Assembly: GCF_008831285.2 (NCBI RefSeq)
Contig: NC_045140.1
Location: 16,366,370 to 16,430,369 of the forward strand
Reading direction: 5' to 3'
DNA from: Nymphaea colorata
Taxonomy: Eukaryota > Streptophyta > Magnoliopsida > Nymphaeales > Nymphaeaceae
Length of the DNA: 64,000 nt
Under the pieces are notes generated by a model. It saw only the letters and a program-made list of their open reading frames with translations. It made no database searches and had not been told where the DNA came from. The position numbers and the translations under genes were made by a program. This document shows positions 1,960 to 52,649 of the stretch, in pieces; the stretch's first letter is position 1, and every line of letters begins with the position of its first letter.

Positions 1960-3400
1960 TCCTCTTGCAATCCTCAGCTTTGGGCCGATCCTGTCCCGAC
2001 GGACAGGACTAGAAATTTCAGAGAGTCTCAGGAGCAACTTCACTCACCGCCACCAATGTCTACGTGTTTAGAGAAAAAGGAAAGCAAGTTAATGGCGAAT
2101 GCAAGAAACATGAACTCACGACGAATACAGGGACGAACACTTTTTCACGTTGTAGTTCAAAGTTAGAGCAAGACACTTATTAAAAATTTAATTAACATGG
2201 TTAAGATGGCCAAGAATCAAACTGGTGCTTTTCATTTATCTATCCCAAATCGAAATCGAACTGACATGATTTATGCAGTTAGTTCTTGGCTGCATGAATA
2301 TTGAAAAGACTCCCAAAATGAAATCGCACTTATGCAGTTAGTCCTTGACTGCATGAATGCGCATTTGGCGTCAACAGAGGAGAGAAAAAATCATCGTATA
2401 CTTTTCCAAGCCAGGGATGGTGAGAAACGTGAAGTTCTAAAGCGACCGGTCATCAACGACAAAACCTTTAATTGCATCAACGACAAGACCTTTGTATGAT
2501 CGGTTCTTTAACAGACCGAACGTCTTTCCGTGTTTGGAAAACGAAAAGTATTTCATAAAAGTTTTTCCGAAATTTCTGACTTGCATGGTTCAACACACTG
2601 GGTCTCCGCCAGCTACCTTTTACTAAGTCCAACCGAATCAAATCTCATTTTTCCGGACTTCGTTCATTTTGACTCGACATGAAACTTAGATGTGGCCTTT
2701 ACATGTTCACTGTCTTCGCATCCAATCTTTTGACAGTTTAAACATTGTTGATCACGTCAGAGATGTGGCTTTTAACAAAAAACTTAAAAAAAAAAAAAAA
2801 GACAAAAAAGAAAAGCCCTGAACGAAAAATTAAAAAGACTGGCACCCTTAAAATATTGTTAGAAGTTATTAGCATGATTATAAACAATAGTCTAATATGA
2901 TAATAATTTAGTATAAAGTTTCCAACGAACTTGTATGAAGCACACTTTAATTTAAGTTGTTAATAGCTGAAATTTTAATAACTAGTAATAATACAACACA
3001 TTTGAACTTGAAAAAATGGATGTCCTAACATCTAACAAGTAGGAATCAAGAACATAATTAGTTTCGATTGCACCAAAAATGAATTTTCTGATAATCTACT
3101 TTAAGCTTGGGTTTGTCCTTGTTTGGAGTATGCCCATTCCTTGCTAAATACATTAAATCGGTCTCCTTTTGAGGTTGATTATTTGATCGGACCCAATATT
3201 TTAGGCCCTTCTATGAAGATTTATGCATATGTAATATTACGTTTAAAAAACATATAAATCATGAAAAAAACGATGCTTTTTTCTACACTTATAACGTGAG
3301 TTTTAAAAGTGAAATGATAATTAGACGATTGATTTAAATTCTCATAAAATTTTGTCTATACATTTGAAAAGATACTCTACACCACAGTTGGCAAACTCGT
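1960..3400 (-). pseudogene. old patatin-like gene relic (exon 5 piece, intron 4, far 5' flank)
   Basis: About 1,970-2,060 aligns with the start of patatin exon 5 in the intact genes: the shared stretches cover the segment coding for the SIGTGSAK region and the exon 5 acceptor. About 2,060-2,370 aligns with intron 4 of genes A and B. About 3,100-3,380 matches the far upstream flank found at 8,430-8,650, 19,050-19,260 and 41,090-41,280. The first four exons are missing and the exon 5 piece is not open. The last part of the intron match, ending in a 'gcagttagt..cttgactgcatgaat' segment, is present twice. I infer a gene copy decayed well before the present duplicates. Confidence 0.7.
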
Positions 3401-3639
3401 TGGCATGGGAATCTGCTTGAATTTCCTACAAGTCCATCCATGAGTGAATTTACAGCAAAATAGTTCTCCTCCCCCCTCCATCTCTCTTATTTCTGTTTCT
3501 TTTTCTTTGTTTGGTCGCCGCTTTGTTAATTTTGTTTTATTTTTTTTGGCTGACTTTTTTGTTTTCGTTGACTTTTCCTCACTCAAATTTGCCTCTTTCT
3601 CTTCCGTCTCCCTCTGCGGACTGAAATTGAAAGAGTACA

Positions 3640-3756: not shown

Positions 3757-3792
<36 letters not shown>

Positions 3793-4668
3793 CAAAGAAA
3801 AAAAAAAAGGGACAAAACCTGGTCTGCAAGCTTTCCCTACCAAGGAAAACTATGAAACTCCATAAAGGAAACTTCAGCCAGGCATGCACCACTGGTCCCT
3901 TGCAATCTCCTCCACGAAACTGCTTGGCCCTTGCCATATATCTCCCCCCACTACTACATTTGTCTTCATCAAACATGGATGGCGGAAACATACATGTATA
4001 AAAAGAGCCCCATTTATACATATCAACAGGCCACACATATTGTAAGAGTGAATTTTCCGCAAAATATATAGTGTAACGTCTTTTTAGTGACTTACCTAGG
4101 AAAAAAGAAAAAAAGTTAAAAAGCTCGAGCCGAAGTACATGTCCTGTGAACACAATGGGACACTGGTCGATGAAAAATATGCTTCGGGGTCAGGAGAAAA
4201 GGGAGAAATTAATGCATGAATGTCGTATTCTATATGCTTCATGAATTATATATAGAACATTCTTGCATGATCCATCCGTGTTAAACTGTTTTTCAGTAGG
4301 CCCACTTTCCCATGCCATTTTCCTGATGATCAGCCGTCAAGTAGCTGTTTCCTCTCATTCAGTGAGCCCACCATCTTCTGAGCAATAAAATATATCTCTG
4401 TCAAGGAAAGGCTTTCGTCATCTCCCTCTCCATGCCAATTAAATGAAGGGCATTAATTTAGAGCATAGCTACTTAGTCACGTCCTCACTGTCTCTGTCAA
4501 TGTTTTGTGTTGAGCTCCTGATCTTAAATCACCTTCAATCAATTAACAACAACATGACATGGCCCATCGATTTGCTCCTCTTAAATCACCTTTAACAATA
4601 TGATATCCCCCATTGATTTTGGATTTCCTTTAATGTTGGGCGAGTCAAGATTCTCAACCTGAGGCCCC

Positions 4669-4706
<38 letters not shown>

Positions 4707-4900
4707 GAGTGGATTCCAAATAGATATTGCACTTAATTTTGATGTTATCCACGGGAAGAAATTGCCAAAATTTTGGTCTATGCAGCCATTTTGGGTCCTC
4801 TTATACAGTCTCTCAAATTCCCAAAGTTGAATGCCGAACAAATCTTCTTTTCCATTCCATTTGAACATTTGTTTTAATTTTGGCTTTCCATATTGCCTTT
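3640..4900. repeat. flank block R, copy 1
   Basis: Non-coding block found in front of each patatin unit. Shared landmarks are the ACATGGATGGCGGAAAC-like segment, the GACTTACCTAGGAAAAAA segment, the GGTCGATGAAAAATATGC segment and the TTAGAGCATAGCTACTTAGTC segment. Other copies, complete or partial, lie at 12,390-13,370, 14,440-15,130, 33,400-34,420 and 36,260-37,080. This copy carries a (CT)n run at 3,760-3,788 and an (AT)n run at 4,671-4,703. Parts also resemble the far upstream flanks of the patatin genes (about 9,300-9,360), so the block looks like older duplicated intergenic DNA. No conserved reading frame was found. Confidence 0.7.
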
Positions 4901-5144
4901 CACGCCTTGGTTCAGCTCATGATAGGTCTTATCAGGGAGAGAAAGAAAGATCTGTGTGTGTGTGTGAGCGAGAGAGAGAGAGAATGGAAATTCAAAGAGT
5001 GAGACATTCATTATTATTCATCCAATCGGATAATTAATATGACAAAGAATCTTTAAAATTCCCCGGCTGAAGCTACAGGACAATAATAAAACAAGGGGAA
5101 CGATATTTTTCAATATTAAACATTTAAACGTCAAAATAGCTGGT

Positions 5145-7860
5145 TCATTTCGTCTGCCGACGTTTCCTTTCGTCGGACAATATCTTGGCGAACCTGCAGA
5201 TGCAAAAAATTTGCAGAAGTAATTATATGTCGCACTCAATTTCCGTAGTTAATTAATCTAAGGTTCCTACCATGCATGGAAGTAATTAAGAACAAAAACC
5301 ATTAATATATATACCTCACAAGCGCGTCCTTGTTGGTGCCTTCGTCCTGGGCGGGTTCGAACCCCCCGGTCTCTAAGTTCACACGTGAAACTGGTTTGTT
5401 CAGCAAGGATTCACCGGCCTCCTTCAAGTTGGCGAGGTTTTTCTCGGTTGATATATCAACCGATGCTTCATCTCCGGTTAAATGATCGTGCTGTATATGT
5501 AGATAACATTAGCTACGGAACGTATTAAAAGCCGGTTACTTTCATATATCATATCACATGATCGGCAGAGTCTATGGTTGTTTATGCCTGGAGCTGATAG
5601 TAGATCATTCGTAGGGATGTAAATCGTAAGGAAGCATGTGAACCAAATGGGAACCCATGCTTCGAAAGAACATAAATACAGTTTGCGCAAGAAGTACCTG
5701 GATTCGCAAATAGTTTTTCTCTGAGCCAAGTGCCTGGAAGACGACGGAGAGATGGAAATCAACCATGTCCGCACTTGACTGGCTGAAAGTGTCGATCAAA
5801 GGGCTGCTCCCACCATTCAACAACCATCCCATCACTCCCCATTTTGCAGCCATTCCTGCAGTATATTTGTGCTCAGCTTTGGCCGATCCTGTCCCGATGG
5901 AGATGACTAAAAATCTTCCATAGTCTGTGGGTTTAACTGCGAAAAAATCTGGATTTCGTTGCACCATTTCAGAAGAAACTTCACTCACCGCCACCAATGT
6001 CTGCGTGTTTAGAGAAAAAGGAAAAGAAGTTAATCGCCAATTATGTAAATGCAAGAAACACGAACTCATGACATGAAGCGCACGCAACAAGCACAGGGTT
6101 TCACGTTGTAGTTTAAAGTTAGGGTGTCTGAATCAAACTCACCTTCTAATCTTCTTTTAGATTAAAAGGGCGCTTTTCATGTAACTATCCCAAATTGAAA
6201 TTGCACTGACATAATCTTTGCAATCAGCTCTTGACTACAGGAATATTAAGAAAGACCTAATTTTCTAATGGGCAAGGGAACCCAAGGTTCTCTGACAACC
6301 TTTGACTTGGCCCCAATACAAATTTTTCACAACACGCTTTTGACTATGCTGTTTGCAAAGATAACGTTCGTTTTCTGATCGAGCACCTTTAAGTTTTCTG
6401 TTTTAAAACTAACTACGGATTCCATGTCTCAAAATGCAGAAAATAAAAGAAATAAATCATGGGAATTCGATTTATGGGAAAAAGAATTGGCAAAGATGTA
6501 TATACGTAAAATCTGATTTATTTCTTTTAGGTGTTCATGATATTTTGAAAATTACGCTTTTCAACGAACGGAGACATGGCTGGATTCAACAAAAACCATT
6601 AACCTGATCAACTGTGTAGTGCTTACCGGATTATTCGCACAAACACCCCCGTCAACAAGGTCGAAGCTCCTAATAGTCTCTCCCTTTTCGTTCTTTGTAT
6701 CAAAGTGGTGAGCTGGGAGGAAGGTAGGGGCGGCTGATGTGCTGATGCATATATCAGAGAGTAAGGCGTCTTTGGTGGGATCCCTTTTCAACTGCGCAGA
6801 AACAGAGGAGCCAAAGACATCAATTGATCAATTCCTCCAGTATCACTTGCATTATAAAGATGTATATGGCCATGAGCCTGACAATTTCTAACCTTATAAG
6901 AGGAGAAGATGACTGGCTGAAGATACTTGATATCGAAGGTGGGAATGACCACATTGGTTAGCGTTTGGTGCAATTTGGTGTCCCCAAGCTTGTCTTCCAC
7001 GAGCTTGTGCAGATATTTACCATCATATTTTGGTCCAGCCAATCCAGCAGCCAACTTATGGACGACGCTCCATGGGCCACTGCATCTCATCAAATAAAAG
7101 CAACACAAACGGCCTCAATATTTGGACGAACCTGGAGAAGATAACTACAAGAATCCAGTATGATGCTGCCAACTTTTCTGTTTGCCGTCATAAAATATGC
7201 ATATATAATGAATCTGAGATTGCAAGACTTATGCCTCTGAATAAATTTTCTTTAATTTGTTTTCGTTTTTGTTTGAAAACTTTGCAGCAACCAGCCTTTT
7301 CTAGTTGCCTATGGCTGCTTCGGCTTATAAACATGGGGACTTCACGTTGGAGTTTTGTATCTGGATAGGAGATAAGCCTACCTGGACCCGGGGAAAATCT
7401 TGGGGCAGTTGTCGAGATAAAAGGACACGATATCCTTGGCTGCATAAAGGGGTCGGTTGTCTGGACCAGGTGCAGTAAGCATGGCGGTAACCAGACCACC
7501 GGTGCTAGTCCCTGCTATGACGTCGAAGTAATCAGCAAGTCTGGCGTTCTCTCCGTCCAATTCCTGCTCACAAAAGAGAAGACACTTTGTCAGTCGTCTT
7601 CATTTTCCTCATGAAGAATCAAAAGATATACAAGATCAGTAATAAACAACCTAACTATACATAGCCATGCAGGAAGAAGCACTCTATACAAGGGATATTA
7701 GTTTGAAGTAAGCAATTAGCACCTGAAGTTGTGATTCAAGGAAGCTGAGGATGGTGCCCGGGATGATTCCTCTGACACCACCACCATCGATGCTCAGAAT
7801 GGTAATGAGTTTACCATAAGCTGGTGGCTGGATGGGCTGTACTGGCGTTGTTGCTGCCAT
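5145..7860 (-). CDS. patatin-like phospholipase (gene A), intact
   Basis: Seven exons in transcript order: 7860-7723, 7563-7382, 7079-6893, 6791-6627, 6000-5698, 5490-5315, 5193-5145. All junctions are GT/AG and phases agree, giving 399 residues, close to the usual ~400 of plant patatin-like proteins. Family knowledge: these enzymes hydrolyse acyl esters of phospho- and galactolipids with a Ser-Asp dyad. Seen here: oxyanion loop DGGGVRG at 25-31, nucleophile elbow GTSTG at 64-68 (Ser66), catalytic Asp216 in VDGG. The start MAATTPVQ is shared with B and D and has no signal peptide, so the product is probably intracellular, like Arabidopsis PLP2 rather than vacuolar tuber patatin. The last exon encodes a basic tail ending RKRRQTK. 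It is the first full gene of the array; its second-type partner is missing. Substrate is not predictable from sequence. Confidence 0.93.
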
Positions 7861-11060: not shown

Positions 11061-11609
11061 TAATATGCTAGTTAATATGTTGCATGCGCCTGTGTATCTT
11101 TTTCACTAATTTCCCAAAACAAGAAAGCAACTTATTAAAAGAAATACATATTCATGATTTTGTGTAATGTTGTCATTATATTACAAACTCATTACATAGA
11201 AATGTAATATACGTACTTTCGATTACTTTTCAACAAAATAATTGATAATGGACTCTCAATGATCTTATAGGATGTTGTACGTGCTTATCAATTTCACTAT
11301 TTTGGATCAGTTTTAAGGACATACGGTTGTTTGAATAATTTCCATTCTTTGTTTGTGAATTTATATTTGTCTTATTTTTATATATTAAAGTGGATGTCAG
11401 TATAATACTTTAACATAAACAATATGTAGTGGATGTCAGTACAATACTTCAATATACATGTACATGCGACTATAAATCTGTCTTGAATGACGCTGGAAGT
11501 TTTGAAAAATTATGGTATAACAATGGTGTAGCAAGGATCATGCGTCCATGTATTGATGTATGTCATCAAATATTGCAAATGTAAATATAAATACATACAA
11601 GCATATGTT

Positions 11610-12100
11610 TCTCATGTTTTCTCTTTCCATATCTTAGTTTATTCTTTTCTTTCTATTTTTCAACTACTCTTCTCACCTTAAAATAGTGAATATTGGAGAA
11701 AAGAAATCTCAAAAAAAAAAAAAAAACTTTTTATACAAGTTATGTCATTACTGGGGCTCGATAACTAAATTGGTTCGATTTAAGCCGTCAACAAAGACTT
11801 TTGGCCAGCCCAAAACCTACTTTGTATTAGGCTTGATGGCCAGCCCTGGGTGCCTTTGCTTTTTTTTCTTATTTAATGGTATTCGGAACATTTTGGCGCT
11901 ATTGACGTGGACGATGCACTAGACCCACTCTTGAATCGGTCTGCCTGAAGCCGAGCTTCCAAAACGTGTCCACCCAGGGTGGACCATAAGCCAACCTTCT
12001 CCTCCTCCTCCTGTTCACTCCATCTAAGACAATTAACTAAGTATATCTACAGCCTCTGACGTGAGTCCCGGTGATTTACTTGTATATAGCACCTCCTTTG
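11610..12100. other. scar of a lost second-type patatin gene in unit 0
   Basis: Positions 11,610-11,755 align with 20,510-20,655, the 3' flank of gene C. Positions about 11,950-12,060 align with 24,790-24,910, the DNA between gene C and the subtilase piece. In unit 1 these two flanks are about 4 kb apart with the whole of gene C between them; here they are under 0.2 kb apart and no patatin exon lies between. I infer deletion of the gene. Confidence 0.65.
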
Positions 12101-12389: not shown

Positions 12390-13370
12390 GTGCTTGAGTC
12401 ATTCCAACTTTGACTCCATTCTGAAAAACACACCGACTCTCTCCCTCTCTTTCAAAAAAAAAAACAAAAAAGAAAACAGACAGAAACGGTCTGCGAGCTG
12501 TCCCTACCAAGGAAAACAATGGAACTCCTAAAAGGAAACTTCAGTCAGGAATGCACCTCTGGTCCCTTGCAGTCTCCTCCACCAAACTGCTTCGCCCTTG
12601 TCATATATATCTTCCAACTATTTGAGTCATACATGTATAAAAATAGCCCCATTTATACATATTGACGGGCCACACAAGGTGTAAGAGTGAATTTATGCAA
12701 AAAGTATATAATATAATGTCTTTTTAGTGACTTCCCTAGGAAAAAACGAAAAAGTGAAAAAACTCGAGTCAAAGTACATGTCCTGTGAACAACGGGACAC
12801 TTGGCTAGACTCGAACTCGCCCGGTTAAACTCGGCTCGAGCTCGACTCATTTATAAACGAGTCGAGTTCGAGCTTACAATGAAACTCGAATGAGTAAATG
12901 AGTCGAGTTCGAGTTTTAAGAACTCGACTCGTTTATACTCGACTCGACTCGTTTATACTCGACGAGTAAACAAATTTCATCCCACGTCATGAAATTTACT
13001 AGATATTTTAAAAAGAAGGATCATATTTTATTTAGACGAGCTAATCGAGTTAATCGAGTCGAGCTCGAGCTCGACTTTATTTAATCGAGTCGAGCTCGAG
13101 CTTGTGTTAGGTAGCTCGACTCGAGTTCGAGTCGAGTTCGAGCTCGAGCTCGTTGAGTCGAGTCGAGCTCGAGCTGGGCAAGCTCGAGCTCGACTCGGCT
13201 CGTGTGCAGCCCTAGGGACACTGGTCGATGAAAAATATGCTTCGGGGATGAAAAATATGCTTCGGGGTCAGGAGAAGGAGAAAGAGAGAAATTAATGTAA
13301 GAATGTCGTTCTATATTCTTCTAGAATTGTATATAGAACATTCTTCAATGAATTTAGTAAAGAGAGACAG
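12390..13370. repeat. flank block R, copy 2 (with hAT-like insertion)
   Basis: Aligns with copy 1 from about 3,680 to 4,260 and with 33,400-33,820. It is interrupted by a hAT-like element. A short duplication of GATGAAAAATATGCTTCGGG follows the insertion at 13,228-13,267. Confidence 0.7.
12802..13214. mobile_element. hAT-like non-autonomous element, CTCGAG-rich
   Basis: A 413-base insertion in block R flanked by the 8-base direct repeat GGGACACT (12,794-12,801 and 13,215-13,222). The uninterrupted copy at about 4,155-4,175 has that octamer once. Eight-base target duplications are typical of hAT elements, and the right end read on the minus strand is TAGGGCTGCACACGAG, a hAT-like terminus. The interior is made of TCGAGCTCGAG-type blocks that can pair extensively. 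It has no coding capacity. Confidence 0.75.
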
Positions 13371-13399
13371 CTCCTTGTGATATGTTTATGTTTCTAACT

Positions 13400-13690
13400 A
13401 TTTGTACCTCTTTAGACTTTACTTTATAGTTGCACCAGCATGCCCTTTTTTCGGGTTAGCAAGGGGTATTAAATTCACCGCTCGAAAAAAGTTCGAAGGA
13501 CCCCCTATTTCTCCTGCTTTCGAGGTTCTAAACTGCGTCGGTGTCAACGATAGCAACGGTGTACCCTTTAGCTTGGGTGCAGCATCCTAACACCTTAAGA
13601 CATAGGAACATAGCACCCACGAGAATCGAATTAGAGATCTGCCTTAATACAAGCCCCTAGCTCGACCAGCTACGCTATGCCCCTTGAGAC
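13400..13690 (-). repeat. possible tRNA-derived SINE
   Basis: Read on the minus strand from about 13,684, the sequence begins GGGGCATAGCGTAGCTGG, containing an A-box-like TAGCGTAGCTGG. It is followed about 34 bases later by a degenerate B-box (AATTCGATTCTC). This is the layout of a tRNA-derived pol III promoter. The body continues to about 13,400 with no tRNA fold downstream of the B-box, which fits a SINE better than a tRNA gene. No A-tail or target duplication was fixed. Confidence 0.4.
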
Positions 13691-13808
13691 AATACGAGCA
13701 TACACTTACGCTTAACTTTTTTAGTATAGAGTACATTATCTACTTAGGACACAAGCATACACTTACGCTTAATTCTTTTAGTATAAAACACATTATCTGC
13801 TTAGGGCA
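13686..13808. repeat. 57-base tandem repeat, two copies
   Basis: The core AGCATACACTTACGCTTAA starts at 13,697 and again at 13,754; the two copies run through 'attatctacttaggaca' and 'attatctgcttagggca'. Confidence 0.8.
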
Positions 13809-13924
13809 GATGGTGCTATGCCCCAATTACGCTTATACTATATAAGTATAAATAGGACTGGTCGAGCCATAAGCCAATTACGTAGGCAAAGATTTTCACT
13901 ATTGTGTACACTTTTTCTGCACCT

Positions 13925-13995
13925 TGTCGTGCATAACAGGTCGCAGCGGATTGACATCCTTGCCGTGCATAACAGCTCGCAGCAGATTGACATTT
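13925..13995. repeat. 36-base tandem repeat, two copies
   Basis: CGTGCATAACAG(G/C)TCGCAGC is repeated with a period of 36 bases (13,925 and 13,961). No further copies. Confidence 0.8.
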
Positions 13996-14439
13996 GCTGT
14001 GGTGCTTAGATTCTGTACAGAGAGAAGCTCAACGATTTTTGGGCATTAATTTCTTCACTCCCTCACCCCTCCCTCTCCTAAAAATACTCGCTCAAAAATA
14101 AAGGGGAAAAGGAGAACGAGCTCTCTGTTGCTCGCATTAACTATGAAGAATAAAAGGCTTGTTGCAGTTCAGAGGATGGAGTGGACACGGGCGGAACGGT
14201 CACTCTCGAGATTCATCGTGTCAAATACCTGATTTTTCGGGATCGCAATTTTCATGGTTGCCTTTTCTTTTTCTTTTTTTAAGATGGTGGTCGTCAAGTG
14301 CCTTATTTATGTAACGACGTGGTGATTTTACAGAGATACACAAGCGGACAGAAACTGATTTTGGTAATCTATCCCTTGAACTAGTTAAAGTAAATTCAAC
14401 TCTTTTGAAGAAACATACATATATTTAAAATAGCCCCAT

Positions 14440-15130: not shown

Positions 15131-15185
15131 AGGTCCACATAATAAAGAAGTTGAAGGATCATTAACCAGAGTATATCAGTAGCTA

Positions 15186-18483: not shown

Positions 18484-18658
18484 TGATCCAAAAGAGAGAT
18501 AGAGAGAGATTTGCTGTGGCTCTAAAACTTCAGTACTATGTCTAAAGCTAAGCAAGATTGTTCAGAGGCCCAGAGGAAAAAGAGGAAACTTTGCAGTTTG
18601 TTGTAAAGAGCTAGTTTGCTTGCGGTATGGGTGAGGCTGCGAAGGCTCAATAGTTTAG

Positions 18659-37080: not shown

Positions 37081-37097
37081 TTTTCACTCTTTGATTC

Positions 37098-37935: not shown

Positions 37936-40495
37936 CTAGGCAAATCCCGTCAGCCGACGTTTCCTCTCTTCGGACAATATCTTGGCGAACCTGCATATAC
38001 AAACATTTACAGAAGATTGTATGACACACTCAATTTCAGTAGTTAATTAATCTAAAGTCCCCACCATGCATCAAAGTAATCAAAAACAAAAAAAACCATT
38101 GATATATATATATACCTCACAAGCGCGTCCTTGTTGGTGCCCTCGTCCTGGACGGGTTCGAATCCGCCAGTCTCCAAGTTCACACGTGAAACTGGTTGGT
38201 TCAGCAAGGATTCACCGGCCTCCACCAAGTTGGCAAGGTTTTCCTTGGTTGACTTATCAACCGATGATTCTTCCCAGGTCAAATGATCATGCTGAGATAT
38301 TCAATGGTTAGAGATTGTACCAAAAGGTGAACAATATCATATATGCTTTCAGATAACCTCGATTAAATTGCAGTTCCATACTTTTATCCTCTTTCTGAAA
38401 GTCGACAATTCAATTTCACAGTAAATAATACCTGGATGCGCAAATAGTTTTTCTCTGAACTAGTTGCTTGGAAGACAACGGAGAGATGGAAATCAACCAT
38501 GTCAGCACTTGATTGAGTGAAAGTGTCGATCAAAGGGCTGCTCCCACCATTCACCAACCATCCCATCATTCCCCATTTTGCAGCCAATTCAGCATTGTAT
38601 CTGTGCTCATCCTTGGCTGAGCCTGTCCCGATGGAGATGACTAAAAATCTTCCGTAGTCTGTGGGTTTAACTGCGAAAAAATCTGGATTTTGTTGCACCA
38701 TTTCAGAAGAAACTTCACTCACCGCCACCAATGTCTGCGTGTTCAGATAAAAGGGAAAAGAAGTTACTGGCTAATGAGGTAAATGCGAGAAAGATGAACT
38801 CTGACACGCATGCGACAAACACAGGGGCGAACGCTTTTCACGTTGTAGTTCAAAATTAGAGATAGACACTGTTTTTTCAATAATAATTTGATTAACATGG
38901 TTAAGATGGCCAAGAATCAATCTCAGCTTCTAACCTTCTTTTAGACGAAAAGGGTGCTTTTCATTTAATTATCTATCCAAATTGAAATAGCACTGACATA
39001 ATTTATGCAATTAGTTCTTGACTGCATGAATATTAAAAAGACTTAAATTTGCTAATAGGCAAGTGAAACCAAGAGCCACTGACAGCCTTTGACTTGGCGC
39101 CAATGCAAATTTTCACAATACACTTTTGACTATGCTATTCGCAAAAATAATGTTTGTTGTCAGCTCGAGCACCTTTAAGTTTTCTTTGTTAAATCTAACT
39201 ACTTAGGCGGACTCCATGTCTGAAAATGCTGCAAATAAAAAAATACATATATTGAAATCTGTGTAGTGCTTACCGGATTATTCGCACAAACACCCCCGTC
39301 AACAAGGTCGAAGCTCCTAATAGTCTCTCCCTTTTCGTTCTTTGTATCAAAGTGGTGAGCTGGGAGGAAGGTAGGGGCGGCTGATGTGCTGATGCATATA
39401 TCAGAGAGTAAGGCGTTTTTGGTGGGATCCCTTTTCAACTGCGCAGAAACAGAGGAGCCAAAGACATCAATTGATCAATTCCTCCAGTAACACTTGCATT
39501 ATAAAGATGTATATGGCCATGACCGTGACGATTTCTAACCTTATAAGAGGAGAAGATGACTGGCTGAAGATACTTGATATCGAAGGTGGGAATGACCACA
39601 TTGGTTAGCGTTTGGTGCAATTTGGTGTTCCCAAGCTTGTCTTTCACGAGCTTGTGCAGATATTTACCATCATATTTTGGTCCAGTCAATCCAGCTATTG
39701 GCTTCTGGATGATGCTCAATGGGTCACTGCTTGTCATTAAACAAATAGTGGTTAATTAATCTAAGATCGCATGTAGATTTCGTGACTCATGCCTATGAAC
39801 AAGTTTTTTTTATTTTCTCTTGTTTTTGTTTGTTTTTTTCTTTTTTTAATTTTGCAACACAAGGATTTGCCGTAACTAGCCCATTCTAGTTGCCTATGGC
39901 TACTTCGCTTATTGTAGACGTGGGTCTTCAAATAGGAGTTTATTTGTACATGGACAGGAGATAAGCCTACCTGGGCTGGGGAAAAATTTTGGGGCAGTTT
40001 TCGAGATAAAAGGGGATGATATCCTTGGCTGCATAAAGGGGTCGGTTGTCTGCACCAGGAGCAGTGAGCATGGCGGTCACCAGACCACCGGTGCTAGTCC
40101 CTGCTATGACGTCGAAATAGTCAGCAATTCTGGCGTTCTCTCCATCCAATTTCTGCTCATGAGAAAGAAGACAATTTTTCAGTCAGCTTGCATGTACGTA
40201 AATCATGTATTTTTTTCCCTCACGATAGATAAAAAATAAAGAGCACCATGTATGAAATTAGTGATAGACAGTCACCTAGCTATACTTATCCATGAAGAAA
40301 TCTACGATTATTATGCAGTGTGCAGGCGAAGTTGGTAGGTTAGTAAGCAATTAGTACCTGAAGCTCTGATTCAAGGAAGCGCAGGATGGTGCCTGGGATG
40401 ATGCCTTTGACACCACCACCATCGATGCTCAGAATGGTGATGAGTTTACCATATGCTGGTGGCTGGACGGGCTGCACAGGCGCTGTGGCTGCCAT
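37936..40495 (-). CDS. patatin-like phospholipase (gene D), intact
   Basis: Seven exons: 40495-40358, 40152-39971, 39726-39540, 39438-39274, 38734-38432, 38291-38116, 37990-37936; phases agree, 401 residues. It has the same architecture as B, its near-identical counterpart 22.0 kb to the left. Seen: DGGGVKG at 25-31 (Lys replaces the usual Arg at position 30 of the oxyanion loop), GTSTG with Ser66, and Asp216 in VDGG. The Arg-to-Lys change is in the strongly conserved DGGGxRG motif and could affect activity. No signal peptide. The tail ends [10 protein letters not shown]. The conserved TATA box and W-box suggest the gene is transcribed like A and B. Confidence 0.92.
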
Positions 40496-40670
40496 TGATC
40501 CAAGAGAGAGACAGAGGGAGATTTGGTGTGGTTCTAAAACCAGAGTACTATGTCTAAAGCTAAGCAAGAATGTTCAGAGGCCCAGAGGAAAAAGAAGAAA
40601 CTTTGCAGTTTGTTGTAAAGAGCAAGTTTGCTTGCGGTATGGGTGAGGCTGCGAAGGCTCAATAGTTTAG

Positions 40671-40678
40671 TATTTATA
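40671..40678 (-). promoter_or_regulatory. TATA box of patatin gene D
   Basis: TATAAATA on the minus strand, 176 bases upstream of the start codon; W-box core TTGACT at 40,781-40,786. Confidence 0.55.
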
Positions 40679-40799
40679 GAGCGAGAATATTGGAAGGGTG
40701 GTTCCTTTTCCCTCACAAGAGGAGAGAAAAGTAGATGGTATTTGGGATGACAAAGAACTTGGAATGACGACTTTTTCAACAGTCAACCATGGCGGGTTC

Positions 40800-42640
40800 C
40801 GTGTCCGTCGCTAAAACGTTTGCAGTTGCTGCCGGCGTATATAACCCGGCTTGGCACCACTTCTTCCCAGTTGTGAGGCTTTCATACTTATTGCACTTCC
40901 CACTCATCATCATCATCATTACTAGAAAGACAAAAACATTTAATTGCCCGTGGTTCAGAATTTGGAAAATGATTTTTTTTAGGTCGAAATATGGATGACT
41001 TAATATCTATGAAGTTGCAGAGATCGGCTGGATATTTGCAAAGGACAGTTGATATAATCTATTTTATGTTGATACAATTTCTTTTGGAAAATGCATTAAG
41101 TCGGTCTCCTTTTGCGATTGATTTGAGCCGATCCAATATTAATATTTAAAATGTTTTGAAAATATTTATGGAGATGTAAGACTCCATACTTATGTTTAGA
41201 ACCAGAATTTTGAAAACCGAAAAATTTTCAAAGCTTATGAAATTTTATCTATACATTTAAAAGTTACTTGTTACCTTTGTTATAGTTCTTTGAATTGGGG
41301 CAGATTAATAAAATACTGTGTTACACAAAAAATATGAATCTACCGAAAGATGGGACAGATATATACAAACTTGTTTCCATTGTTAAAATGGCCTCTTCTT
41401 AACTACGTAATGTTGCCTGTCCAGATCGATTTGGTGCAATTTTTTTCTCCGAGCAAGCTTGCTTGTTGAATTGGGGCACCTTATTCGGAAGTCTTCACGC
41501 GGCGGGGCCTGACCATTTCCCTAGGAACGGAGGGTGCTGACGATCCACTTTCAATCCCTGTCTTCTTTCAACGAAGCAGATTCTTTTTCGGAAGCAGGGT
41601 CTGTTCGGAATTGATTCAAGAGTACAACTAAAAAACAAAGAAAGAACTATACACTGTATCCTTCGATTAATCCATCCTGTAACGCCTTCAAATAACCATC
41701 CGGAGCCATATATGCATATATCGTGGATTTTTTGCAAATTTAAAACGTTTTGGATGTGAATATCGTTATAGGAGACGAGTAATATTCATCAAACACAGGA
41801 AGCTGGTTAGACCAACCAGTAATCTCTCCCTCTCTCTCTCTGAAACTGAAAATGAAAGAGCAACAGCGGTTTCTGAAACTTCTAAAACAAGGAAATGGTG
41901 ATAGTTGTAGCCAAGTTTTGCAAAACCATGAATTCATTCTAAATTAGGGTGAGAGGGGTTTGACCCATGGCCCGAAGAATGCCGAAGCTTCCACCCAATC
42001 ACTCGTTCCAAGTTCGGTTCCAACACCAAAGCCTCCACCCATCCAAGTGAGTTCGAAGTATGAATTCATCGTCGAAATGCATACCCTTGCGAGCCAATTC
42101 TGACCACATCTCCCGAAAGGATAAGCGTCTTCATCAAACATGGATGGCTGAAACACGACACGCTTCTTGTCTTGGGCGCGTCTCATCACATATAAAGTTG
42201 GTTACGAGTACATTTTTTTCCTGTTTATGAAGGAATATATTATGCGTTAGAAAATCCCTCTTGTTCATATATATTGAAGGCCGGCCACCCAAGGCATGAG
42301 AGTACTGAATTTAGGGGTAAAAGAATTTCGACTTTTTGTAAACGAATTATCAAGAAGAAAAAGATGGAGAAAAGGGCAAAGGTAAATTTTTTTATACAAA
42401 CCTTTGTTCTTATTACGTCGTCATAGGTTCCACTTCAAGGTTTTTTATTATTTATGGAACCTTTGTTCCTCTAACCAGCCGTGTTTTGAGGAGGGTTAAT
42501 TTGTTTGTTGTCATTTTTTCTCCTTCGATTTCTAGGCTCTCTTTTCTTTCTCTTTTTCCAACTATTCTTCTCATCTTAAAATGGTGGACATGGAAGAAAA
42601 GAAATCTCAAACGTTTATTTGACTTCTTATTATTGGCCAC
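40800..42640. other. intergenic between patatin genes D and E
   Basis: Aligns with 18,780-20,640 of unit 1. No gene seen. Confidence 0.7.
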
Positions 42641-42729
42641 CGAATCCAATAATGCCAAAGAATGTTACAACTGCAGGAAAATCAAATACACACAATAATA
42701 AAACAACGGGGATTATTACAATTACACAT

Positions 42730-45700
42730 TCAAACGTCAAAATAGTTAGTTCCCACACAACCCGTCTTGGGAGAACCCATGAGGCGACGTTTCCTTTCCT
42801 GGGAAAGTATCTTCGCAAACCTGCAGACGTAAAGAATTTGCATGACTAATTAAATGACATGAACGCTCAATTTCAATAGCAAATTAAACTAAGGAAGCCA
42901 GCCAACCCTCCCCATGCATAAAACTAGCTAAGAAAACTCCCCAATTAAATGATATATACACCTCACAAGCGCGTCCTTGTTGGTGCCATGGTTCTGGATG
43001 GGTTCGAGCCCGCCAGTCTCCAAGTTCACACGTGAAACAGGGCTGTCCAGTAGGGCTTCACCAAGTTGGCGAGGTTTTCCTTGGTTGATATATCAACTGC
43101 TGATGCGTCCCCGGTTAAATCACTATCCTGCTACGTAGAAATATCTATACCCATGACTACCCATTGTACTAAAAAGGAGAATTTCATATTTTTTTATAAG
43201 TTTTTTCTTTTATGATAGAGATACACAGCTCTGTCACCATCACATGGCCATCAACTCCAGTTAAAATATCGGGTAGGCAAAGAAACAAGACATTTTTTGT
43301 TTTTGTTTTAGCGGTATTTCAGTAGCTTGAAAATATAATTCGGTTTTCTTTTCTTTCTTTTTTTTGAAATTAATTTTCACTCTATTATCTTAAAATCAAT
43401 CTTCTAAACAATTTTCATCAAGTTTGACATAGTAAGATCTGGCATTTACCCGTTTTCCCTCACAGTGCAGCTCAATGCATTTTATATATATTAAAAACAT
43501 GAAAATGTTAATTTACAATGAAAATATCCAAGGATATTATTTACTTTTTGTGCTCAATTAATATAACTGCAACGTAAATATTTAAAGTTCTCTGAAAACT
43601 AAAACGAAGAAAAATTGAGAGAATTGAAAAATAAGTTGGAACTTAAACATTTTTTAGTAAAATTGGTTCATGTAATTAATCTTAATGTTACAATGAAAAA
43701 CCTGTGAGAAATAAATAAGAAAGAAGGCGAATACCGTCTCCATCAAAAGGTAGATCCACACTGCAATTGGAAAGTTGAAGGTTAAAAGGCCCTTTTTTCA
43801 TGCGTTGAATTTTTGTTCGTTCGTATCTGGCAAGCCCGGACTCGTTCCATTTATTTCCTTCCCCATTTGAGAGTGACTCCTGACCCACCAAACGTTACGA
43901 AGGCGATGAGATCACCATGAAAAGGTTCGGACAACTGCCCTCGTAAAATTTTATTATTTGTTTCTTCACAAAGAAGAAGAAACCAATGGTATATAGTCTT
44001 ATATATATATATAAGACGAAGGCCTTTTGGAATTTGGAAGCATGTGAATGGATGAGGTTCATTTTGTTGAAAGCCATTTGTTTTTTGTTATCATAAATAA
44101 ATATCTGGATGCGCAAATAGTTTTTCTCTGAGCCAAGTGCTTGAAAGACGAAGGAGAGATGGAAATCAACCATGTCCGCACTTGACTGACAGAAAGTGTC
44201 GATCAAGGGGCCGCCCCCACCATTCAACAACCATCCCATTACTCCCCATTTTGCAGCCAATCCTGCAGTATATTTGTGCTCAGCTTTGGCCGATCCTGTC
44301 CCGATGGAGATGACTAAAAGCCTTCAACGGTCTGTGGGTTTAACTGCTAAAAAATCTGAATTTCGTTGCACCATTTCCGCAAGAACTTCACTCACCGCCA
44401 CCAACGTCTATATATTTGTTCAAACAAAGAAGAAAATAGGTAAATTAGTGGCAAATGATGCAAATGGATGAGGGATGAACTCTCATTTCTCTCATTACAA
44501 GTTACATGCACATACTGTCAGATTTAAACTCCGAAACTGTAAAACTTGCTAAAAAGGTCGCCCAGTGGCAATATGTAAGTCAGATTACAGGGAGATTAAC
44601 TTCTTGTTTTATAAACTTTAACTCAAAAGAACATATAGATTAATACCGACAAAGGTGAAGTAAAGATGATTGCAGTTAAGGGCCGTATCCATTAATACGG
44701 CCATGGCCTGGTCAACCGCAATGTTGCTTACCGGATTATTAGCAGCGACGCCTCCATCGACAAGGTTGAAGCTCCTAAGCTTCTCCCCATGTTGGTTCTT
44801 TGTTTCAAAGTTGTGGGCTGGGAAGTACGTGGGGGCTGCAGATGTGCTGATGCATATATCAGAGAGCAATGCGTCTTTGCTAGGGTCCCTTTTCAGCTGA
44901 GCAAAGACAATGTTGGCGATAAGCACACCAATTCAATTAATCCTTCAATTCTCAACATATAAAGTTCTATCTATATAACCATGCATGGATGTGGTGATCG
45001 TATTAATGGCGCTAACCTGAAAAGAGGAGAAGACGACGGGCTCAAGAAGTTTGATGTCGAAGGTGGGAATGACCACATTGGTTAGCGTCTGGTGCAATTT
45101 GGTGTCCCCAAACTTGTCTTTCACGAGCTTGTGCAGATATTCACCGTCATATCTTGGTCCAGTCGCTGCAGCTACCAACTTCTTGATGCGATTAATCCAT
45201 GAGACACTGCACCGCTCATCAAGGCGCCAATGCGACAGAAACGAGTTCAATTAGATGACAGTGCTCCAGTTCACATGAAGCTACCAATTCTACTGTTATT
45301 GTTACCAAGTAATTGATATTTGAACTTAAGCACCTAGCTTAAAGAGAATGATTTCAGTACATAGAGAGTCGGGATATTTTAGAAATTATTTAAAAAGAAA
45401 TGCTCCTTTTAACTTTTTCATTTTCTTTTTTTGTCATTACAAAAGGTTTTTTTTTTAATTAACCAGAAGTATTTTTATCATTAATCATTCTGAGGTGTAC
45501 ATAACCCTCTTCTTAGTTTAAAGGGAAAGACCACCAACCTATTCATTTGCTTGTAATATCTCAATTCATATAGCAATATTGACAAGCGTGCACGACTATT
45601 GATGTAGTCCCTGTTGTCACACAAAGGGTGATCGATCAGGTGGGTCGAACGCTAGGTCGGGAATACTTTGTTGACTTAAAATATTGAAGAGAACGATCTA

Positions 45701-46204
45701 TCTGTAGAGGAAAAACTTACCTGGATTGTGGGAATATTCTGGGGCAGTTATCGAGGTAGAAGGGTACGATATCCTTGGCTGCATAAAGCGGCCGGTTGGC
45801 CGCACCAGGCGCAGTAAGCATGGAGGCCACCAGACCTCCCGTGCTTGTCCCAGCTATGACGTCGAAATAATCTGCAATTCTTGCGTTTTCCCCATCCAGT
45901 TCCTGCTCATGAGAAACAAAATTAAATTTTCAGTCTCCAACTGATACACACATTGTTAGGAATTGGGACTGAACTACACCTCGCTTGCGATGCATGTCCA
46001 TGGAAAACTGTATGATGATTTGCAGTGGATAGGTGATATTAGTTTGATGTAGGCAATTGGTACCTGGAGTTGTGCTTCAAGGAACCTAAGGATGGTAGCC
46101 GGGATGATGCCTCTGATGCCACCCCCATCAATGGCCAGAATGGTGATGAGGTTACCGTCGGTTGGTGGCTGCAGCGCCTGCACTTGCATTGTTAATGCTA
46201 CCAT
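42730..46204 (-). pseudogene. patatin-like phospholipase (gene E), broken
   Basis: Exons corresponding to gene C: 46204-46064, 45902-45721, 45206-45017, 44896-44732, 44407-44105, 43127-42962, 42820-42730. DGGGIRG, GTSTG and the VDGG Asp are present. Three disabling changes: an in-frame TGA at 44,324-44,326 in exon 5 (KPTDR then stop, where C has KPTDHGR); the intron 5 donor changed from GT to AT at 44,103-44,104; and the same 10-base deletion in exon 6 as gene C. It is clearly more decayed than C, its near-identical copy about 22.0 kb to the left, so the first two changes postdate the unit duplication while the deletion predates it. Confidence 0.92.
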
Positions 46205-46385
46205 TGATGAGGGGGAGAGGGAATATGTGTGTGTGTGTGTGTGTTACTAGAACTTCAAAGGAACAGTATGAAATTAAGCAAGCTCGTTGTGCAGAGCCCG
46301 GGAGGAAGAAGCTCTGGAGTTGGTAATAAAGGGTGGTAGGGACGATCAGGGGTATTGTGTTGAGGAATGGTGAGCCTACGCTTAG

Positions 46386-46393
46386 AATTTATA
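46386..46393 (-). promoter_or_regulatory. TATA box of patatin pseudogene E
   Basis: TATAAATT on the minus strand, 182 bases upstream of the start codon, identical in context to that of gene C. Confidence 0.45.
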
Positions 46394-46985
46394 GCTATAA
46401 CGACAATATGGGAACCTCCTTTCCCCTCAACGAAATGAAAAATATGGCATCTACGATGACTCAGTCGGACAGTCGCTACACAAGTTCACGCGTTTGAAAT
46501 GCTCGGTCAAGTGATGAAGGGTTACGCAACAGAGGTGAAGTTCCACGTTGCTACAGTGTTTAAAGGATCTATCTCCCAACTAGACACCGCTTCCTAATTG
46601 GAAACTTTCAAGCACTCATTTCTTTAAAGCGATGTTGATGGCCACGTAGTTGGGGTATTTTTAAAATTTTTTATAAAAAAAATAAACATTTTTATTTTTA
46701 TTTTTTCAACTTTTTGATAACCACTTTTTATCTTTTTATTATTATTCTTTATTTACTTTAAAGAGCATTTTGATCATCATACATCCTATGCACAATTTTC
46801 CATTCACAAACCTGGACCTGTCCCATGTACGGAAGCCTGGAGCCCGGGTTCCAGACCAAGTCTGCTGACCGGTTGTCTGACTTGGTTGCGGCGCCCCTCG
46901 AACGAGGGTGGACTCCATCCAAGCCCATACGTCAACCTCCTCCTCCTCCACCTGTTCACTCCGTCCAGGCCAATTAAGTCTAATC

Positions 46986-47208
46986 TACAGCAGCCCCACT
47001 TAGTTAGCTGTACACAGTCTGTGATTCACATTACATTACATTGACTCATTGACATCATTATTAAGTTATATACATGTTACTGTGGAATAAATACACCACA
47101 GCTGCCCCACTTAGTTAGCTGTACACAGTCTGTGATTCACATTACATTTTTTTTACTCATTGACATCTTTATTAAGTAATATACATGTAACTGTGGAATA
47201 AATACAAA
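46986..47208. repeat. 110-base tandem duplication
   Basis: The segment from 'ccccacttagttagctgtac' to 'ctgtggaataaatac' occurs twice in a row here, but once in unit 1 (about 24,885-24,985). It is a duplication specific to unit 2, downstream of the subtilase stop codon. Confidence 0.85.
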
Positions 47209-47350
47209 TGGCAATAAAACAATAAAAAAAAATTGCGCATAAGAAATCACTAGTGTGACTAGTCCACGAACAATTATTTAACTACAATAAACGTATATAA
47301 ATCAAAATTGATACTATTGATTTGATCTTCAGCATCCATTACTGACATGC

Positions 47351-50300
47351 TCAGCTTATCCCCACCTTAACCAGAATGGTGCTGCGGACATAGTGTCGAC
47401 CACCATCAGACCAGACTAACAAACCGAATGCATATCCATCTTTAGCTCCTCTCTTCAGTTGTGCAGCTACCTGAAACTTCCTTTCTTCGCCGATTGCCCC
47501 GAACTCCAAACTTTTTGGCTCTACAGATACGAAAATTCCGGGAGGTGATCGGACTCGAACGGTGTAAGTGGCCGGAGCGCCGCCCACATTCTTAACTGTT
47601 CGTGAGATGGTATCTGACCCGGTGAGGTTGATGAAAGTAATTGAAGGGTAATTCAAGTCCCCAACCTTGGGCTTCTCCGAGGGACAGTTGTATGTCTTGT
47701 TGGTGATGTGAGCAGCAAAATCTTTGTTATAATCGATGGCACACAAGAATCTAAGATAATCCTTAATGCCGATGTCGTAAACCAAGCCTGGATCTGTGAC
47801 CCTGTTTGCATGAACATGACCTGCTCCATAACTAAATGGTGTTGCCTTTTCCAGAGAGGCGTTGAGCATCGATTCCTTCTTGTTGTCAACTTGCATCGCT
47901 TCAAAAAAAAAGTAAGCAAATACATAATATAATTCATATCATAAGAATAGTGTTTAGGTATTAATAAACTAAAAAAAATTACAGAATCGATCAGTAACAG
48001 TACAATATCTCAACTGTAATCTCACTAAAGAGGGCGACTATATTTCCAAAGGAATGATTAAAGACGGCATGCAACTTCTTGTAGTACCCTTACCAGTGGT
48101 CATAATTGCAGACTTGATAGCTGCAGGACTCCAATCTGGATGAGCTCTTTTGAGTAAGCCCACAATGCCAGAGACATGGGGGCATGCCATTGATGTTCCA
48201 GAATCAAGATTATAAGGCACACGGCGCTTGTCATAAGGAACACCTGTGGGTGATGTTGCTTCACTATATGCAGCAAGGACATTCACTCCTGGCGCCGTAA
48301 TGTCAGGCTGTCACATGAAAATGAAAGATCACGAGTCTTAATCTTAGGCTACTTCACATAAAAATATCACAGAACCTTGACATCTATATATATATATATA
48401 TATAAAATTAATGAACCATGACTCTTAACATTTATATTTTTTTTCTATCGAGAACTGACAAGCCCGCCGTCATAGGGGATGCCATCGGCAGCGGCCCCTG
48501 GTGGTCGTATAGTGATGGGAGGGAGGGACGAAGTCGAGCAAGGGAGAGAGGGTTGGAGAGCAAAAAAAAAAAAAAAAAAGAAAAAAGAAAGCATAACATC
48601 AGGCCTACCTATTTGACAAATAGATGTTGCGTATAATAATATGTATGTGAGTGTATGTGTGTTTGTGGAAGTCAAAAGAGCTTAAGATTTATCTGCAAAC
48701 CTTGAGAATTCCTGGAATAACAGAGTTAGGCCCCTGAGACGAGAAACCAGCCATAACTGGCGCTGGTTTGGTTCCTAGCTCAGTGATTGGGCGCGTGATA
48801 TATGCGACTGGTGACCTGCATATATTCATAAAATAAATCAATCGATTCGTAGTTTTCCAGGAACTATTTAAGCCGACAAAACCTTCACACGTTCAAATAA
48901 TATGTCATATACAAATTGCGCACATATATCCTTCTACCTAACATATATTACAAAAGCCACGTGTATAGAAGTGTATAATCATTATTATTAGATATAATTG
49001 ATTTAAAACCTGTTGTATCATGCTTTTCACGTTATATGGGCCAAGGCCAATGATGAAAAGTCTCAACAAGTAAATGTGTATGTAAAAGAAAGGTACGAAA
49101 TCAAACAAAAACTTAACTGCAAATAAGACCAAGTTCATTGTTTGGTATTTCTACTAATCGATCAATTCCAATCTTATTTTCGTAAGAGAATAAGAGCAAA
49201 AAGATTATGCGATACTTTGTCGATCTAATATACTTGAAGATTCTTTCCCCGTCGGATGCAGTGACATGAACTGCGGGAAGAAAGTGAGCGTCGGCGATCA
49301 TATCATTTGCACTGATTGGGTCGTTGCACAGAATCATTCCAACACCTCCTGCCTTCCATACTGCATATCCTTTGGCAACTCTTGCATTTGCTCCACGAAG
49401 GCAAGAAACAATTTTTCCTTTTGTTTTCACTGGATCAAGGCTACCCTCAATGCAAAATGTACTGGTTATAAATAAGAAAAGAATAATCAAGTTAACTCTC
49501 AATAGAACAAAGCATGCGCATTTGAAGTACAGAATCTAAATTACTTACGCAGCAGTAGCATTAGAAATTTTGAGGTCTTGCCCTGCGACCAATGGATAAG
49601 CCTTCCTTTGAAGAGAATCTGGAGAAAGACTTTGCCCCTAACAGTACCGTTTCTAAAAAAATATTAGAACATTGCAAATTGCTCCATCTCGAAAACATAT
49701 ATGCTAGGATTATCATTTGTTAGCTAAGAAAGCAAGTCTATTTGATTTAGTATGCAAAACAATGCATACGGCTCACTAATTAAATGGTAAACAAGAAATT
49801 ACATCAAAGATAATGATGTAAATAAAAAAACGAAACTCAAACGTTTAACCTTGAAAGAAGTGCCATCACCAAGAACAGCATAACTAATAAAGTCTCTGTC
49901 AAATGTGCTTGCTGCAACAGTGATTAGCCAGGGAGCCAAGTTAGTCACTGTGCCAGCCTTTGGCCCATTGTTCCCACCTGATGCAACCACCACAATGCCC
50001 TTGCTAATGGCATGAAATGTGCCGATAGCAATTGCATCTTCAAACAAACCAGCAGGATCACCTCCCAGTGATACAGAAATAACGTCGACACCGTCACTTA
50101 TTGCTGCATCAAATGCAGCCAGTACATCTGCTCCAAAACATTTGCCATTTTTGCCAAGTACTGGTGTCCAGCAGACCTTGTAGATTGCAACACGGGCTCT
50201 CGGTGATCCGCCTTTGGCAGTGCCATGACCATAACCAAACACGCTAACATTGTGTACAAAATTGCCGCCTGCTGTTGATAGGGTGTGGGAACCATGGCCG

Positions 50301-52649
50301 TTGTGGTCACGAGGAGAAACGAAGCCCTCTGTGTCAGCATGGTGAACTGCATCGATGTAACCTTTATCGTAGTAGCGTGCACCGATTAACTTCCTGCAAG
50401 TGATCCAAACTCAATAAGAAAATTAGTTTCTCTTTACACTTAACAACTATAAACCCTTTTACTAATGCCCTGCACATGCCATTACTTGTAACTTTTTCTT
50501 TAGTTCCTATTTGAAGAAAACCCAACTCAATTTTAACAAGAAGAGCACGCATTTAACTAGAAAATCCAACTCAATTTTACCAAGAAGGGCATGCATTTAT
50601 CTATGAAAATAAGCAAAGAGGAGGCTAAACAGCAACTTGTTCTGAGAATAAACCTGTTACATTTAACACCGTTTACATCAGTTTCATTTTGGCACACTCC
50701 CTTCCACCTCGCAGGAACAGGGCCATACCCTTCATCTCTGAAACTCTTGGACTCTGGCCAGGCCCCTGTTTACACCGAACTAAAATGCATTACTAGTGGA
50801 AAAACAAGGACTTCCGAACGTTTTGTGCTTTCTAGGCTATGTTGCTGCAGAATCTTAGTCTTCTGTCTACGATTTTTTGATTGAATACTATCTTTTGTAC
50901 TTCTACTGCAAATTAATGTTTTCAGAAATGCAAGTATGGACGGTGCTTTCGATGGTCAATTAATAATCATTAGGGCAACTATGACCCGATTTCTCGAAAT
51001 AAACATTCGCCGTCCTTGTTTATATGACCTCCTTTGTTGGATGCCATATTTTGGAGTTGCTATATATGTCTCAATTTAAATGAGTAAAGATCCCCTAGTT
51101 GAGGCCCTCCAAAACACAGAAGAACGGATCGTTGCAGAATAGATTACAGAAAAAGTAACAGGAACGACGCACCTGTGTCAAGATTTGCAATGATCACGTC
51201 TTCACCGAAGTTGCCCTTCTCCCAGAGGGAGCCCACAACAGGGGAGCCGCCTTTCTCCAGACCCATGAATCCCCATGATCGAGTCGTGTGGAGGAAGAGA
51301 CCATTGTTCGGAAATATCGACAGAACACGAGGGTCCTCTAACACGGTCCAAATTAAATATCATTAATCAATTAAACCACGTATATATAGGAGATCTGCAA
51401 ACTTGAAATTAAGATTGAGGCGCAGAAGCCACGAATATGTTGCAATAACAATAATAATTATTAGTAGTAGTAGTAGTTGACAAAACAAGAACAGAGCTAC
51501 TAAAGTTTTGTCCTTCCCATAACTGAAATTGCTCTAAGCAAAATGGCTGCAGACGTTGCAGTAGATTACACGAGAAAAGGAAGGAGACAAACGGAAGGAG
51601 GGACCTGAGTAGGGAACAGGCGTATGGCCCTGTTTCTCAAATGAAGGAGAAGGGAAGAGGAAATAAATTAAGAGCATGGCGGTCTATGTGTGGTGGACTC
51701 CAAATACAATGGCAGATTGCTATAACTATTTTCCAGTTTTGGTGATAATGCAAAAGCACGCTTACGTACAAATATTTGGTACATTTGTGAATATAAACTC
51801 CGATTTCATAACTTAAGTTGCTTTGATTTGATTTAACAGAGTAAATGGGTTCATCATTGGCCAAAAAAGCTTATAAATCTTCATTATTTATTTGTAAATC
51901 TTACCAAAAAGATATGGTTTTCTAATTTTCCAAAAGTCGTTCGATTTTTGAATCAGCAAATACACTTTGGAACTCATTAGCTCTCAATAGTTAAAAAGCA
52001 GGCTGCCATTAAACTTACTCTTAAGCCACTCTTGTAAGTCAAATTTAAGCAAAAGGTTAAAAAATAAACAAGAAGAAAATGTGTTTTATGTATATATATT
52101 AAAGGGAGAGGGAACGAGAGAGAAAGATATAATACTTGCAATGGCGGCAGCGTCGTATTCGTCGAGACGTGCAGCAAAGCCGTTGATGTAATTTGTGTAG
52201 GAATAAAAGACGGCATCTTTGGCTTTCTCCTTGCTGCAGAGGCCCACGAGTGGTTATACGTCAAATACTTGCATATCATGGCAACTGACTGCATGTTGTT
52301 CTTTATCAATGCAATGCAATAAGTGCAGGAAAAGTAAGTTGCATTTGAAAAGTAAAAAATTAAATTAAATTGCAGATTTTTTATGTACCTTCCTAGAAAG
52401 GAAGCAAGAAACTGATGATGTGAATCACTGACCGACTCATGACCGACTGCATCGGGTGGTTCATGGAAATGTGCTCCCAAATAAACGATGTATGACTGTC
52501 ACCACCATCAAGAACGTCCAGTTTGGTATGTTTCGATGCCAATAAACTGAAAGAAAGAACAAGAGGGAGAGAGAGAGAGATGCAACCTTTTGGAGCGCAA
52601 AAGTGGGTGCAAAGAATAAAGCAAGAAGAAGAAAAAAGAGCTTCCCCAT
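47351..52649 (-). CDS. subtilisin-like serine protease (subtilase), intact
   Basis: Eleven exons: 52649-52587, 52495-52389, 52233-52136, 51337-51173, 50765-50654, 50393-49850, 49637-49549, 49461-49216, 48815-48701, 48307-48094, 47898-47351. All junctions are GT/AG and phases agree; 766 residues, usual for plant subtilases. In order: signal peptide [18 protein letters not shown]; inhibitor I9 prodomain ([11 protein letters not shown] to about residue 120); peptidase S8 with Asp143 (LDTG), His215 (GHGSHT), oxyanion Asn323 (GGNNGP) and Ser552 ([12 protein letters not shown]); a PA insert around residues 370-480 (KGKIVSC, GVGMIL); and a C-terminal Fn3-like domain (DLNYPSI, RTVKNVG). An in-frame ATG upstream at 52,751 would bury the signal peptide, so 52,649 is preferred. 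Family role: secreted protease of the cell wall or apoplast; substrate unknown. The His motif has Ser for the usual Thr. Unit 1 carries only its last two exons. Confidence 0.94.

Follow-up and report, generated by a model that had tools for sequence, protein, structure and literature searches.

The stretch of Nymphaea colorata DNA analysed here (64,000 nucleotides, C3:16366370-16430369; hereafter the window) holds patatin genes in a tandem array next to subtilase genes. In our reading, to which we assign a probability of roughly 85%, the array has evolved by birth and death, with local duplications, deletions and ectopic gene conversion. Comparison of the window with itself revealed five adjacent patatin genes (A to E), all on the minus strand and each with seven exons, of which A, B and D are open and C and E are broken, together with two patatin fragments, two scars left by gene loss, and subtilase sequence. 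As in a tandem array, the adjacent paralogues lie on one strand and have collinear flanks; as in birth-and-death evolution, pseudogenes and gene loss are found among the copies.

For the self-comparison by BLAST we retained the rows of 120 bp or longer with E <= 1e-10, 63 in all (nine of them with an E-value of 0), and the genome searched comprised 407.8 Mb in 783 contigs. The rows form parallel diagonals in the order of a flanking block termed R, the first patatin type and the second type, which is what the first-pass annotation had anticipated for a dot-plot of this region. Gene models were obtained by projecting the exons of gene A onto the other four copies; those of A, B and D are complete and those of C and E are broken (Table 1). 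Together, the self-comparison and the gene models bear out the earlier inventory of three full-length genes, two broken genes, two fragments and two scars. There were no matches to known RNA families at gathering scores in the window.

Table 1. Features of the patatin array (positions within the window)
Feature	Position	Strand	Description
Patatin fragment F1	1971..2311	-	parts of exon 5 and intron 4
R, unit 0	3777..4934		self-BLAST, genome search
Patatin gene A	5145..7860	-	type 1, 7 exons, open, 399 aa; mosaic
Unit-0 scar	11609..12036		missing type-2 gene between matching flanks
R, unit 1 (with inserts)	12437..15297		self-BLAST
10.4-kb copy, member 1	15750..26143		B, C, subtilase 3' piece
Patatin gene B	15939..18483	-	type 1, 7 exons, open, 401 aa
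Patatin gene C	20763..24200	-	type 2, broken: 10-bp exon-6 deletion
Subtilase truncated 3' copy	24612..26143	-	unit 1
Patatin fragment F2	29340..30004	+	parts of exons 6 and 7, inverted
R, ghost unit	33399..34411		self-BLAST
Ghost scar	35003..35353		type-1 3' flank fused to upstream flank
R, unit 2 (partial)	36265..37097		self-BLAST
10.4-kb copy, member 2	37752..48391		D, E, part of subtilase
Patatin gene D	37936..40495	-	type 1, 7 exons, open, 401 aa
Patatin gene E	42749..46204	-	type 2, broken: exon-6 deletion as in C, other defects
Subtilase gene	46709..52656 (approximate)	-	I9, S8, PA domains in separate open frames

Patatins are plant lipid-cutting or storage proteins, and their Ser-Asp dyad is marked by the nucleophile motif GXSXG and a DG motif. 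Gene A, the only joined protein that was scanned, matches the Pfam patatin domain (PF01734; E 4.1e-28, 99.3 bits against a curated cut-off of 27.7) over positions 1-190 of 191. It also appears alike over its whole length to potato Patatin-17 (PDB 1oxw; residues 15-398, E 1.9e-96), inclusive of the GTSTGG and DG(G/A) motifs. GTSTGG and DGG are present in the translations of all five genes, the alignment to 1oxw having been made for gene A. By this family match gene A is a plant patatin and a predicted lipid acyl hydrolase. Elsewhere in the genome, multi-exon patatin genes are found on contig C8 (three places near 19.76-19.78 Mb, one at 19.717 Mb and one at 16.37 Mb), multi-exon matches on C10 (3.18-3.20 Mb), and further patatin-domain matches on C1, C2 (two), C8 (13.54 Mb), C14 and C587 (two). 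At C9:18.828 Mb (about 1507-1705 of stretch L039) there is a lone patatin first exon, 92% like gene D, that keeps a short part of intron 1; no other patatin exon was found in that 4-kb stretch.

The five genes fall into two types by landmarks that had been described in the first-pass annotation and were reproduced in the gene models, namely the start motif, an exon 1 of 46 or 47 codons, an extra codon in exon 3 and a long intron 5. Type 1 (A, B and D) is typified by the start MAAT(T/A)PVQ, an exon 1 of 138 nt (46 codons), an exon 3 of 187 nt and an intron 5 of 140-207 nt; type 2 (C and E) is characterized by the start MVALTMQVQ, an exon 1 of 141 nt (47 codons), an exon 3 of 190 nt and an intron 5 of 972-977 nt. 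The type-1 genes look constrained, with dN/dS values over the full coding sequence of 0.28 (B-D), 0.36 (A-B) and 0.34 (A-D), and over exons 1-5 of 0.22, 0.32 and 0.33, respectively. Genes C and E both lack the same 10 bp of exon 6, apparently through deletion between two short repeat copies. The deletion leads to an early stop (in gene C after 360 codons, as counted by hand on the translation) and is absent from all seven other aligned genes (A, B, D and L032-L035). Gene E additionally has a TGA in exon 5 and AT in place of GT at the intron-5 donor. The C-E dN/dS over exons 1-5 is 1.03, from only 26 changes (20 non-synonymous and 6 synonymous) and hence with little power, and fits the decay of the type-2 genes.

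The division into two types is upheld by these exon landmarks but is blurred by gene conversion in gene A, which is a mosaic: a type-1 gene with a type-2-like 3' part of exon 5 and a D-like tract of exon 3, intron 3 and exon 4. Of the diagnostic sites in A, 16 of the 20 at positions 114-276 of exon 5 have the type-2-like state, compared to 19 of the 134 located elsewhere (0 of 1,000 in the scan permutation). With IQ-TREE, A joins C and E over these positions with a support of 95, the grouping of A with B and D having an AU p of 0.028; over exons 1-4, exon 5 positions 1-100 and exon 6 taken together, A joins B and D, the grouping of A with C and E having an AU p of 2e-7. Different tracts of gene A give different trees, and in two of the six tract tests (exon 5 positions 1-100 or exon 6 alone) its groupings are not discriminated. 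At about six of the 16 type-2-like sites the outgroups mostly have the type-1 state, so that A shares derived type-2 states there; at the other ten the outgroup state is that of type 2, mixed or neither of the two, and these may be retained ancestral states or ambiguous.

In the second tract (6614-7014), A agrees with D at 12 sites, A with B at 4 and B with D at 3, compared to 66, 89 and 392 sites outside it. The K2P distance between A and D in intron 3 is 0.041, nearer than the 0.063 between B and D; in introns 1, 2, 4, 5 and 6 the A-D distances are 0.377, 0.339, 0.206, 1.001 and 0.184. Because intron 3 of A is nearer to D than that of B is, while the other A-D introns are far apart, the exchange of this tract probably postdates the split of B and D. 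The limits of the tracts were set after looking at the data, so the Fisher p-values are descriptive and the scan and run permutations are the fairer measures; the latter gave 0 of 5,000 for A-D, 0.003 for A-B and 0.002 for both A-C and A-E. Gene conversion between B and D within the coding sequence was not significant (p 0.56).

Genes C and E are joined by perfect runs of 487 and 477 bp, with a further 251 bp after one mismatch. The longest run in 2,000 shuffled trials was 242, under a null that assumes even mutation rates though windows range from 85.2 to 100% identity. When just the polymorphic sites in coding sequence are considered, the longest run shared by C and E falls short of significance (p 0.07), and the claim of conversion between these two genes is drawn from the full-length alignment. 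The 477-bp run (20894-21371) includes exon 6 with the shared deletion; since a perfect run covers the common frameshift, conversion may have spread the deletion between C and E, or the deletion may be older than both. We would entertain, though only as a tentative proposal with the odds somewhat against it, that conversion moved the disabling exon-6 deletion between separated type-2 copies and is thereby killing the type, while the type-1 genes, which likewise exchange tracts, stay working.

Mosaic identity could alternatively arise with no conversion at all, if constraint were uneven or selection on exons convergent, and indeed most of the mosaic tracts overlap coding exons and the AU result for exon 5 is modest. 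We consider this improbable, as the A-D tract extends its low distance to intron 3 when the other introns stand at 0.184-1.001, and the perfect runs of C and E take in introns and upstream sequence of genes that were already frameshifted. Ectopic gene conversion, our preferred reading of these patterns, would have operated on an array that also shows a larger-scale repeat structure.

In the self-BLAST, unit 0, at about 3.8-9.5 kb, aligns both with unit 1 (at 14.4-20.4 kb) and with unit 2 (at 36.3-42.4 kb). The order of R, type 1, type 2 and a subtilase piece, proposed in the first-pass annotation as a repeated unit, stands for units 1 and 2, holds in part for unit 0 and survives as a remnant in a ghost unit. 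R does lie beside all four units, in unit 2 as a partial copy; the genes being on the minus strand, it is their 3' (downstream) flank, which corrects the earlier wording that R precedes the units. The best-preserved repeat of the array is a 10.4-kb copy, the members of which are 94.7% identical (540 mismatches in 10,209 aligned bases; K2P 0.055), with its left end beyond R and its right end inside the subtilase gene. Homology stops in the stretch that separates R from the genes (15298-15750 versus 37098-37751), with only a 17-bp match there.

The distances among the R copies (R0, R1, Rg for the ghost unit, and R2) do not track those of the genes. Three pairs are about equally close (K2P 0.108 for R0-R1, 0.109 for R1-R2 and 0.106 for Rg-R2) and three are wider (0.150 for R0-R2, 0.181 for R1-Rg and 0.205 for R0-Rg). 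R1-R2 is thus no closer than R0-R1, unlike the introns of B-D (0.025-0.178), which are mostly much closer than those of A-B (0.063-0.564). Because homology breaks between R and the genes and the R distances do not follow the gene distances, the units were probably not copied whole as one unit each time, as the earlier picture of a single unit would have it. R need not be older than the 10.4-kb copy, however: R1 and R2 differ at 23 of 228 sites, a divergence also reached by 6 of 44 windows of equal size taken from the copy.

A genome search with R0 gave 8 candidates, all of which were scored, and recovered the array copies and three places on contig C7 (3.45, 3.74 and 3.86 Mb). Hence R is not confined to the array, but it is a low-copy sequence outside it, so that the refuting result named in the first-pass annotation, R as a dispersed genome-wide repeat, applies only weakly. 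The C7 copies (L029, L030 and L031) adjoin pieces of a PaO (pheophorbide a oxygenase)-domain gene, with no patatin exon in the 9 to 9.5-kb stretches around them. They lie in longer blocks that are mostly 95-99.6% alike, and a tree splits them from the array copies with a support of 0.99; from these sequences C7 looks like one locus amplified. If R were a mobile element, repeated insertion and not unit duplication would have put it beside each unit, a notion favored by the C7 copies without patatin exons and by the discordance of R and gene distances. It has little probability in our view, given that all four units have R on one and the same side, collinear into the 3' flank, that the C7 copies form a separate branch within their longer blocks, and that the whole genome yields just the 8 candidate places. 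Duplication within the array, which we favor over insertion, is accompanied by traces of loss.

In the ghost unit, 3' flank sequence (35003-35088, similar to 15757-15842) runs straight into upstream flank (35087-35304, similar to 19452-19667), with 2 bp in common at the junction (35087-35088), followed by a 53-column piece like 20670-20722. A probe from this flank (19400-19760) has four matches in the genome, all within the array. The 218-bp flank in the ghost looked organelle-like by eye, and a mitochondrial origin was rejected upon finding these four matches; it has no match to plasmids, a weak control. In unit 0, positions 11609-11713 resemble 20505-20610, the flank of a type-2 gene, at 86% identity; the right flank (11984-12036, similar to 24820-24872) is only 53 bp long (87%, E 9e-13), and no convincing subtilase match follows it. 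Fragment F2 is split by a dispersed repeat of ~380 bp (29484-29865) with imperfect terminal inverted repeats, of which at least 30 further genome copies were counted by hand, 40 of 865 candidates having been scored. Adjacent to it, 30004-32863 is a repeat with two copies on C4 (~90% alike in long pieces) and partial copies on C8, C9 and C1; the match to one of the C4 copies begins exactly at the end of F2.

Subtilase sequence is present in units 1 and 2, as the first-pass annotation had it, with a gene at the right end of the array and a copy in unit 1 that retains only the 3' part. A 111-bp tandem repeat in two copies (46987-47206) adjoins the subtilase 3' part; at an overlapping position the unit 1 copy has a gap of 109 bp. 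Within 10 kb to the left of the window on contig C3 lie a subtilase with I9, S8, PA and fn3_6 domains (L040 5092-9442) and, on the same strand, an S8 piece of another (L040 773-1426), such that subtilase genes flank the patatin array on both sides. To the right, the window further contains a Copia-type reverse transcriptase fragment (54947-55720, minus strand; RVT_2, PF07727) and a piece of a BTB/POZ-domain gene (56848-57516, minus strand; PF00651, E 1.1e-24). That B-C and D-E are two alleles falsely placed in tandem by the assembly is very improbable, for although a divergence of ~5% with patches of perfect identity is possible in a very heterozygous plant, homology ends on both sides (with only the 17-bp match in 15.2-15.76 versus 37.09-37.76 kb), 26.1-33.4 kb has no subtilase sequence past the last 43 bp of the copy, the ghost unit stands between the two pairs, and the probe 19400-19760 has no match on other contigs.

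For an array that grew in place, we would reconstruct the order of events, the route of copying and the direction of conversion behind the observed structures, identities, junctions, mosaic patterns and dN/dS values as follows. Local duplication would have given rise to several units of R, type 1 and type 2. A later unequal exchange or ectopic copying, with one end inside a subtilase, would have generated the 10.4-kb pair B-C and D-E. Deletions would have taken out a type-1 gene in the ghost unit and a type-2 gene in unit 0. Ectopic gene conversion would have acted between exon 5 of A and type 2, between A and D in exons 3-4, and between C and E in two tracts.

Tandem patatin clusters are known from kiwifruit, Rhododendron, grape and potato, with six genes in about 114 kb in kiwifruit and 18 in about 700 kb in potato, according to an excerpt of PMC11831494. 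The present array resembles these in holding several patatin genes in one region; unlike the clusters in that excerpt, it has two alternating exon-structure types, broken copies and adjoining subtilase genes. For the tree genome of cupuassu, an excerpt of PMC11152179 reports a tandemly duplicated patatin pair to be positively selected, as opposed to the dN/dS of 0.28-0.36 of the type-1 pairs here. Judged by title and abstract opening, none of the papers listed for patatins or for gene conversion in arrays deals with this array or with a patatin-subtilase array. As a plant gene cluster the array is ordinary in kind, if a clear example, and it leaves existing knowledge of patatins and of tandem arrays unchanged; what is new is local detail, namely the mosaic gene A, an apparently separate history of R, and the possible spread of a disabling deletion by conversion. 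It offers a compact, readable record of a plant gene cluster growing, exchanging tracts and losing genes, in which one deletion junction is located to the exact base. Moreover, because gene A is a mosaic, patatin trees built from whole coding sequences can mislead.
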